Of a stretch of DNA of 39,295 bases, positions 22,769-24,721 are shown in pieces. The stretch is from Candidatus Gastranaerophilales bacterium (GTDB lineage Bacteria > Cyanobacteriota > Vampirovibrionia > Gastranaerophilales > Gastranaerophilaceae). The DNA lies in the NCBI GenBank assembly GCA_944323285.1, contig CALURV010000005.1, positions 1 to 39,295 of the forward strand. Reading direction: 5' to 3'. A model generated the notes under the pieces. It saw only the letters and a list, made by a program, of their open reading frames with translations, was not told the DNA's origin and made no database searches. Made by a program: the position numbers and the translations under genes. Within the stretch, counting starts at the first letter, position 1. The number at the start of each line of letters is the position of its first letter.

Positions 22769-23734
22769 TTATTTTTTGCCTGTAAATATAACATAACTTG
22801 GCACTGGGAGTTTTTTCATAAATTTAACAAATTTTTTCTTATCATTAATCTGACAAATATAAATTCCTATAAATACCAAAAGACAAGAAGCAAACTGTTT
22901 TAAATTAAAAGTTTCTCCTAAAAAGAACCAGCCAAAAAATACTGCAGCTACTGGCAATAAAAATAAAAAAGGTGAAAATTTACTTGCTGAAAGTGTACAT
23001 ATTGCAAAATTATACAATGCATAAGCAACAACAGTTAATAATCCCAAATAAATAACTAAAAATATACTTGAATTTAATACTATATCAAAACTGCCTTGTG
23101 AAAATATATTCATTGCAGTAAAGAAAGCAGCCCCCCCAACAACTGCAATTCCGGCCAAAAAGAATGGAGGATATCTATCCATTAAATATTTTGTTGTAAT
23201 AACGCAAGTGTCAGTAAGAATAATTGCAATTAATTCTAAAAAATTACCCAATAATGGATTAGGCGCCAATTCTGATGCATCTGAAGAAAGACTCAATAAT
23301 ATAGAACCTATTATTGAAATAGATAAACCAAGATACACAATTTTTATAAATTTTTCTTTTAAAATTATCCTAGCAGCAATTACTAAAATTACAGGTTCTA
23401 ATGAACTTACAATTCCTGCTTGTCCTGATGTTGTATATTTAAGGGCATTTGTTTCAAAAATAAAATATAAACAAGGTTCACATAACATCATTAATAAAAT
23501 TAACTTTATATCTTTTTTTTCAATTTTAATGTTCTTATACACTGTAAAGATAAAAGGAAGAAAGAAAATAGACGAAATAAACATTCTAAAAGCCATTAAT
23601 TGAGGTGTAGTATAATAATTAAGACATATTTTTGTTGCAGTAAGGGTTGTACCATATAATAAAACTGCAATTGTTATAGATAAATATGCAAATAACTCAT
23701 TCTGGTTTTTATATTTCGACAAAAAATCTTTCAT
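22769..23734 (-). CDS. EamA/DMT-family transporter
   Basis: A ten-helix drug/metabolite transporter made of two EamA repeats (about residues 15-145 and 160-290), with the family's conserved helix-4 region (ALKYTTSGQAGIVSSLEPV) and second-repeat end (FFGWFFLGETFNLKQFASCLLVFIG written here only as the GWFFLGE core). The ATG at 23734 is chosen because GAGG lies 12 bases before it; an in-frame TTG at 23758 would add eight residues but has no ribosome binding site. Members export amino acids, nucleosides or other small metabolites; the substrate cannot be predicted. Confidence 0.88.
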   Translation of the reverse strand: MKDFLSKYKNQNELFAYLSITIAVLLYGTTLTATKICLNYYTTPQLMAFRMFISSIFFLPFIFTVYKNIKIEKKDIKLILLMMLCEPCLYFIFETNALKYTTSGQAGIVSSLEPVILVIAARIILKEKFIKIVYLGLSISIIGSILLSLSSDASELAPNPLLGNFLELIAIILTDTCVITTKYLMDRYPPFFLAGIAVVGGAAFFTAMNIFSQGSFDIVLNSSIFLVIYLGLLTVVAYALYNFAICTLSASKFSPFLFLLPVAAVFFGWFFLGETFNLKQFASCLLVFIGIYICQINDKKKFVKFMKKLPVPSYVIFTGKK

Positions 23735-23901
23735 TTCATAAAAAATCCTCAACTCCAATTAAATATAAAAACAATAATATAAAGTAAACAATAGTAAAAT
23801 AATTAAATAAACCAGATTAAAAATCAATAAAAAAACACATATTATAAATAAATGATTAACAAAAATTTATTAAATAATTTTATGAAATTTTAAGAAATAT
23901 T

Positions 23902-23929
23902 TTGATTTTTTTATATTTTGTAATATAAT
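23902..23929 (+). promoter_or_regulatory. Promoter of the rpaB-like gene
   Basis: TTGATT (23902-23907), 16-base spacer, perfect TATAAT (23924-23929). The implied start site is near 23936, with GAGGG before the ATG at 23972. The -10 box lies inside the tandem TTACA array described at 23915-23954, so occupancy of the array should block the promoter. Confidence 0.65.
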
Positions 23930-23954
23930 GTAAACAAAGGTAATATTTTGTAAT
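23915..23954 (-). promoter_or_regulatory. Four-unit 10-bp direct repeat array, HLR1-like RpaB site
   Basis: On the minus strand the 40 bases divide exactly into four 10-bp units: ATTACAAAAT, ATTACCTTTG, TTTACATTAT, ATTACAAAAT. Units 3-4 match the cyanobacterial HLR1 consensus (two G/T-TTACA-W-W octamers separated by two bases) except for one A at the first position of the second octamer. OmpR-family regulators bind such head-to-tail repeats with one-turn spacing. It overlaps the -10 and start site of the rpaB-like gene, which argues for negative autoregulation. Sequence seen; binding inferred. Confidence 0.65.
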
Positions 23955-23971
23955 GTTGAGGGTTCTAAGAA

Positions 23972-24721
23972 ATGACAGAAAATAATGAAATACAAGCTGA
24001 ACAAGATTCTCATCAAAAAATATTGGTTGCAGACGATGAAGCCAGTATAAGAAGAATCCTAGAAGCTCGTTTAAGTATGATTGGATACGATATTATTACG
24101 GCAACAGATGGAGAAGAAGCCATTGCTGCATTTAATAAATATAATCCTGATTTGATTGTTTTAGATGTTATGATGCCAAAAATTGATGGCTATGGAGTAA
24201 CAAGAGAAATTAGAAGAACATCAGATGTTCCTATTATTATTTTAACAGCTCTTGGTGACGTATCTGAAAGAATAACAGGATTAGAATTAGGTGCTGATGA
24301 TTATGTTATAAAACCATTCAGTCCCAAAGAATTGGAAGCCAGAGTAAAAGCAGTATTAAGAAGAACAAATACAAAAGAAGTTGCTGCTCCTACAAGCAAA
24401 ATTGCTAAAAATGTTATTACCACCGGTAACATTAGAATTGATACAGCAAGAAGACAAGTATTTAGAAAGAATGAACGTATAAGATTAACAGGTATGGAAT
24501 TCAGTCTTCTTGAACTTCTTGTTAATAATTCAGGTCAAGCATATTCAAGAAATGAAATTCTTCAACATGTTTGGTCATATCCGCCGGATCACAGGATAGA
24601 TACCCGTGTAGTTGATGTACATATCTCAAGATTACGTTCCAAATTAGAAACAGATCCTGCAAATCCTGAGTTAATTTTAACAGCCCGCGGCATTGGATAT
24701 ATGTTCCAAAGAATTTCTTAA
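23972..24721 (+). CDS. rpaB: OmpR-family response regulator, RpaB-like
   Basis: A 249-residue regulator. The receiver domain (about 15-130) has acidic pair Asp21/Asp22, phospho-acceptor Asp65 (VLDVMMP), Thr92 and Lys114 (YVIKPFSPKELEAR). The winged-helix domain (about 150-247) contains IRLTGMEFSLLELLV, DTRVVDVHISRLRSKLE and LILTARGIGYMFQ. The segments ASIRRILE-RLSMIGYD and the linker/wing read almost as cyanobacterial RpaB, the essential regulator that controls photosynthesis and stress genes under kinase NblS/Hik33. In a non-photosynthetic relative the regulon must differ. It is monocistronic with its own promoter and terminator, and no kinase is adjacent. Orthology is strongly suggested, not proven. 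Confidence 0.9.
   Translation: MTENNEIQAEQDSHQKILVADDEASIRRILEARLSMIGYDIITATDGEEAIAAFNKYNPDLIVLDVMMPKIDGYGVTREIRRTSDVPIIILTALGDVSERITGLELGADDYVIKPFSPKELEARVKAVLRRTNTKEVAAPTSKIAKNVITTGNIRIDTARRQVFRKNERIRLTGMEFSLLELLVNNSGQAYSRNEILQHVWSYPPDHRIDTRVVDVHISRLRSKLETDPANPELILTARGIGYMFQRIS

Follow-up and report, generated by a model that had tools for sequence, protein, structure and literature searches.

The window, a stretch of 39,295 nucleotides from a Candidatus Gastranaerophilales bacterium (family Gastranaerophilaceae), carries a gene for an OmpR-type regulator behind a promoter overlaid by a row of 10-bp repeats. The features of this locus, with conservation counted over 39 genomes of the genus, are as follows.

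22769 to 23734, minus strand: EamA-family transporter gene, divergent, on the opposite side of the intergenic region
23890 to 23949, plus strand: promoter block TTAAGAAATATTTTGA...TATATTTTGTAATATAATGTAAACAAAGGTAATATTTT, nearly invariant in the 39 genomes
23902 to 23907, plus strand: -35-like TTGATT, assigned by likeness to the consensus; TTGA invariant; 16 bp from TATAAT
23917 to 23934, plus strand: HLR1-like pair (units 1 and 2), 17 of 18 positions to WWTGTAAMNNWWTGTAAM; overlaps the -10 box; kept in most of the genus
23920 to 23923, plus strand: core GTAA of unit 1; 39 of 39 genomes, 0 changes
23924 to 23929, plus strand: -10 box TATAAT; invariant, 39 of 39
23930 to 23933, plus strand: core GTAA of unit 2; 38-39 of 39 per base, 0.75 changes per site
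near 23936, plus strand: predicted start site
23940 to 23943, plus strand: core GTAA of unit 3; 36-39 of 39 per base, 1.75 changes per site; just inside the predicted transcript
23950 to 23953, plus strand: core GTAA of unit 4; not conserved, G in 14 of 39, 6.5 changes per site
23958 to 23962, plus strand: ribosome-binding-like GAGGG, read from the sequence; AGGGG-type in relatives
23972 to 24721, plus strand: rpaB orthologue, 249 amino acids, a receiver plus an OmpR-type winged helix

RpaB, a master regulator of acclimation to light, occurs in cyanobacteria and in the chloroplasts of some algae; it is phosphorylated by NblS and binds HLR1, the high light regulatory 1 element of photosynthetic cyanobacteria. 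The product of the open reading frame at 23972-24721 scores 361.5 bits against the NCBIfam equivalog model for RpaB (ycf27; NF045944), above its cut-off of 330 and with the next best score at 240, so that the downstream gene is indeed the RpaB-like regulator that the original prediction took it to be. Its closest relatives, at 79-98% identity, are from Gastranaerophilales, followed at 67-74% by proteins of Vampirovibrionales, Obscuribacterales and marine Synechococcus/Prochlorococcus, and its recognition helix, DTRVVDVHISRLRSKLE, is identical to that of the marine Synechococcus/Prochlorococcus RpaB (L091-L093). What differs from the RpaB of photosynthetic organisms is that a photosystem-derived signal is absent in Gastranaerophilales. 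The presence of the gene is not new, as homologues of RpaA, RpaB and NblS in Melainabacteria have been reported earlier (PMC3787301; PMC5877343).

Read on the minus strand from 23954 to 23915, the promoter gives ATTACAAAAT ATTACCTTTG TTTACATTAT ATTACAAAAT, four 10-bp units with TTAC cores at an exact spacing of 10 bp. This direct reading bears out the head-to-tail row with identical outer units that had been described, as well as its overlap with a perfect TATAAT, which lies within the array at 23924-23929. The likeness to a two-unit HLR1 at all positions but one is likewise confirmed, as the 18-bp pair at 23917-23934 on the plus strand, TTTGTAATATAATGTAAA, agrees at 17 of 18 positions with WWTGTAAM-NN-WWTGTAAM, the HLR1 consensus in reverse complement, the sole mismatch being a T at one degenerate position (M). 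The array is real and non-random: among 20,000 sequences simulated with a first-order Markov model of the 213-bp intergenic region (13% GC), none had four in-phase TTAC cores at 10 bp and one had three. As a lone 17/18 match to HLR1 is not rare in the genome of the window (44 matches with at most one mismatch, against 29 in the reversed control), the weight lies in the phasing of the row, in its position and in how well it is kept. Of 383 genomes of the order, eight have the four-unit in-phase GTAA pattern at rpaB, all eight from the genus of the window, whose own genome is one of them; other matches to the pattern are unrelated sequences, mostly minisatellites, and a search for the array as a repeat elsewhere in its own genome found nothing coherent. 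Several Gastranaerophilaceae genomes (genera g15 and g21) carry 10-bp tandem minisatellites of the types GTAAATAGGG and GTAAATGGGG (L109-L117, L122-L130), which are unrelated to the rpaB array.

A stronger finding than the single array is a family-wide, helically phased, putative operator of the HLR1 type in a lineage that lacks photosynthesis. Across 117 genomes of the family, the exact 18-bp HLR1 consensus is matched 2,435 times, against 286 for the reversed control, with the count above the control in every one of the 117 and the strongest enrichment in genera g15 and g16 (69 against 3 in G114, 71 against 10 in G096). In a phylum-wide sample the enrichment is found in many photosynthetic cyanobacterial families too and is absent in families f34 and f8, the latter of the same class. 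When TGTAAM pairs are compared over periods of 6-18, they peak sharply at 10 among the matches listed for G114 (57 of 100) and G096 (25 of 50). The scan for 10-bp-spaced pairs that the original prediction had proposed for its own genome gives no such peak there, for which reason the test was moved to the family. The genome of the window, with 7 exact sites against 3 in the control, is itself a weak case; all seven sites are intergenic, and for five of them a start codon follows on the same strand after 72-82 bp. The massive over-representation of such sites means that a DNA code of this form exists in Gastranaerophilaceae, so that the earlier suggestion of such a code in a non-photosynthetic lineage is supported for the motif at the level of the family, but for the array in only one genus. 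Searches for literature joining HLR1 with Melainabacteria, Gastranaerophilales or Vampirovibrionia, and for literature on regulons in the Gastranaerophilales group, found none, which is weak evidence since subscription papers were mostly outside the search.

These HLR1-type sites are mostly intergenic, and 68 of the 88 exact sites in the stretches fetched from four groups lie upstream of a same-strand gene within 350 bp. Downstream of many of them stands a sigma-28-type promoter, TAAAGTTT-N-GCCGATAA, and downstream of others ACTTTATA. Upstream of 36 strict sigma-28 promoters there are 37 matches to the repeat (at 16 or more of the 18 positions). The distance from the end of the repeat to TAAAG is 16-17 bp for 24 of them, 27-28 bp for 7 and 6-7 bp for 2, the remaining 4 falling outside these ranges. 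Of the 37, 31 thus take one of two narrow positions ahead of the -35 box, whereas matches to the reversed control are scattered. As these promoters come from loci picked for the motif, its presence among them is biased, but its offset is not. The element ACTTTATA likewise begins 37-39 bp past the repeat in 10 cases and 27-28 bp past it in 2. At steps of about 10 bp the repeat keeps to one face of the helix, an arrangement to be expected if a protein bound to it contacts the polymerase. With standard -35 numbering the repeat covers about -70 to -53, and both this position and that on rpaB have their counterparts in cyanobacteria, where HLR1 over the start represses and HLR1 at -66 to -45 activates (PMC13421787).

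The proteins encoded downstream include two flagellins, a family of the MGLAASQARLL type, SurE, LysM and EF-hand proteins and a pilin-like protein, and most have no Pfam match. Two further observations concern these loci. Where a sigma-28 box is lacking, many HLR1-type sites are followed by another type of promoter, CAATTTTT ... ACTTTATATATAT (G103, G114, G096; L258-L317). A protein family beginning M-G-(L/M)-(A/S)-(A/S/T)-S-Q-(A/V)-R-(L/F/Y)-L, with no Pfam family listed, recurs behind the promoters, and loci with the M-G-(L/M)-(A/S)-(A/S/T)-S-Q start are L216, L260, L280, L283, L286, L303, L314, L315 and L321.

The repeat shares with cyanobacterial HLR1 its 18-bp length, its 10-bp period as a direct repeat (KTTACAWW-N2-KTTACAWW) and its positions relative to the start. 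It differs in occurring in a lineage without photosystems, in its link to sigma-28-type promoters, in its targets (flagellins, the MGLAASQARLL-type family and many proteins that match no Pfam family) and, on rpaB, in having three units in a row, with one departure from the consensus. The interpretation that we favor, by a modest balance of probability, is that the HLR1-type repeat WWTGTAAM-NN-WWTGTAAM serves in Gastranaerophilales as a genome-wide operator, most likely read by RpaB, that activates at its targets and represses rpaB itself. The TTTGTAAAGTTTTGTAAC sites and the DNA at 23910-23950 would then be candidates for RpaB-bound DNA. In many target promoters the distance from the end of the repeat is about 16-17 or 27-28 bp to a sigma-28-type -35 box, or about 38 bp to ACTTTATA; an OmpR-family dimer bound there, at roughly -70 to -51, would be expected to activate.

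As to the reader of the sites, the motif alone does not name RpaB, since other OmpR-family dimers are known to sit on TTACA or TGTAA direct repeats and the proteobacterial OmpR and CpxR read similar TTACA/GTAAA repeats in operators with a 10-bp period. Such direct repeats are common to those systems and to the one described here, while the regulators differ; in WalR operators the spacing is 11 bp, whereas in Gastranaerophilaceae it is sharply 10. Three OmpR-type regulators recur in these genomes, namely RpaB, an RpaA-like protein and one named here for its helix, RVHVGGLR. The sites could therefore be a genuine OmpR-family operator read by one of the two paralogues, with the likeness to HLR1 merely a family-level one, an alternative that we judge unlikely but nevertheless serious, because G006 (L343, L348, L431), a genome of the same order that is 99% complete and has both paralogues, keeps HLR1 sites 17 bp before sigma-28 boxes while a six-frame search of it for rpaB gave nothing above 42% identity, the best match being a paralogue. 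This gap may be a real loss, favoring another reader, or a gap in metagenome assembly. Loss of the gene at a contig end was considered and is unsupported, as the contig ends hold neither rpaB nor its G012 neighbors, save for a short ileS-like piece, and that region is without rpaB. G012, of the same family as G006, has rpaB. Against a paralogue as reader, the recognition helices of both (ETIRVHIRHLR in the RpaA-like protein, RVHVGGLR in the other) differ from that of RpaB, which is identical to the picocyanobacterial one. Moreover, among the genes for OmpR-type regulators, only rpaB has good sites on its own promoter, 17/18 in the genus of the window and 18/18 plus 17/18 in G012, and neither paralogue has one. 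On these grounds RpaB is the predicted reader of the HLR1-type sites, with a likelihood only a little over one half.

The conservation of the rpaB promoter bears on how the regulator may control itself. By parsimony over the genus (39 genomes), each site within TATAAT or upstream of it has changed 0-1.1 times, against about 3.7 times in the flanks. In the leader the two spacers have 2.5 and 2.0, so that there the unit-2 core, at 0.75, changes less than its spacer, at 2.5. Units 1-3 of the array are thus kept in the genus, but unit 4, at 6.5 changes per core base, is not, so that the conserved array has three units, the four of the original prediction being an overstatement and its doubled HLR1 not being supported. 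Alignment of the upstream regions of rpaB across Vampirovibrionia, which had been proposed as a check, shows conservation in one genus but no array outside it: none was seen in loci of Vampirovibrionales, Obscuribacterales or cyanobacteria. A TTTGTAA half-site lies no more than 110 bp before rpaB in 27 of 53 other family members, while of 98 control promoters taken from these loci 6 have it; the counts come from related species and so are not independent. In G012, which belongs to another family of the order, an exact 18/18 HLR1 site lies 187 bp before rpaB and a 17/18 site about 125 bp before it, in a region shared with a divergent gene. An own-promoter site on rpaB orthologues is found in one genus and in G012, and about half of the others have the half-site only. 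Most other rpaB promoters of the family (L026-L078) have a conserved TTGCAA-N17-TAAKAT followed by GTTATAAATATTAA and are unlike the promoter in the genus of the window. Several genomes of genus g1 (L174, L178, L182, L185) share another conserved in-phase triple, GTAATGAAAAGTAATAATTAGTAA, in the region that separates two divergent genes.

Before the start, spacers and unit cores are equally invariant, so that promoter function alone accounts for part of this conservation. The whole array might even be nothing but a core promoter in very AT-rich DNA, its TTAC cores coinciding, unbound, with the -10 box and the initially transcribed sequence, as the near invariance of the block at 23890-23933, spacers included, the lack of conservation of unit 4 and the absence of the array outside the genus would allow; this is improbable, however, given that three exact in-phase cores arise by chance so rarely (1 in 20,000), that unit 3 lies past the predicted start and is yet kept in most of the genus, that the unit-2 core changes less than its leader spacer, and that elsewhere in the family these words build phased operators. 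With the favored operator reading, the rpaB promoter in this genus would present three phased units over the -10 box, the start and the early leader, and a dimer bound there would be expected to block RNA polymerase, so that RpaB would limit its own synthesis. Such autoregulatory wiring of rpaB is a plausible prediction.

Taken more broadly, the HLR1-type regulatory code may predate photosynthesis or be independent of it. More specifically, and tentatively, at somewhat less than even confidence, the pairing of RpaB with HLR1 may predate oxygenic photosynthesis or have been kept without it, and would govern a large regulon in Gastranaerophilales, with promoters of the sigma-28 type and of other types ahead of genes for flagellin and for surface and export-type proteins, while limiting itself through sites over the start of rpaB. 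If true, this would separate RpaB from photosynthesis and would point to an older job, perhaps at the cell surface and in motility. The sites offer a definite set of targets in gut bacteria with uncharted regulation, and even if a paralogue proves to be the reader, a large unknown regulon in Gastranaerophilaceae would still have been revealed.
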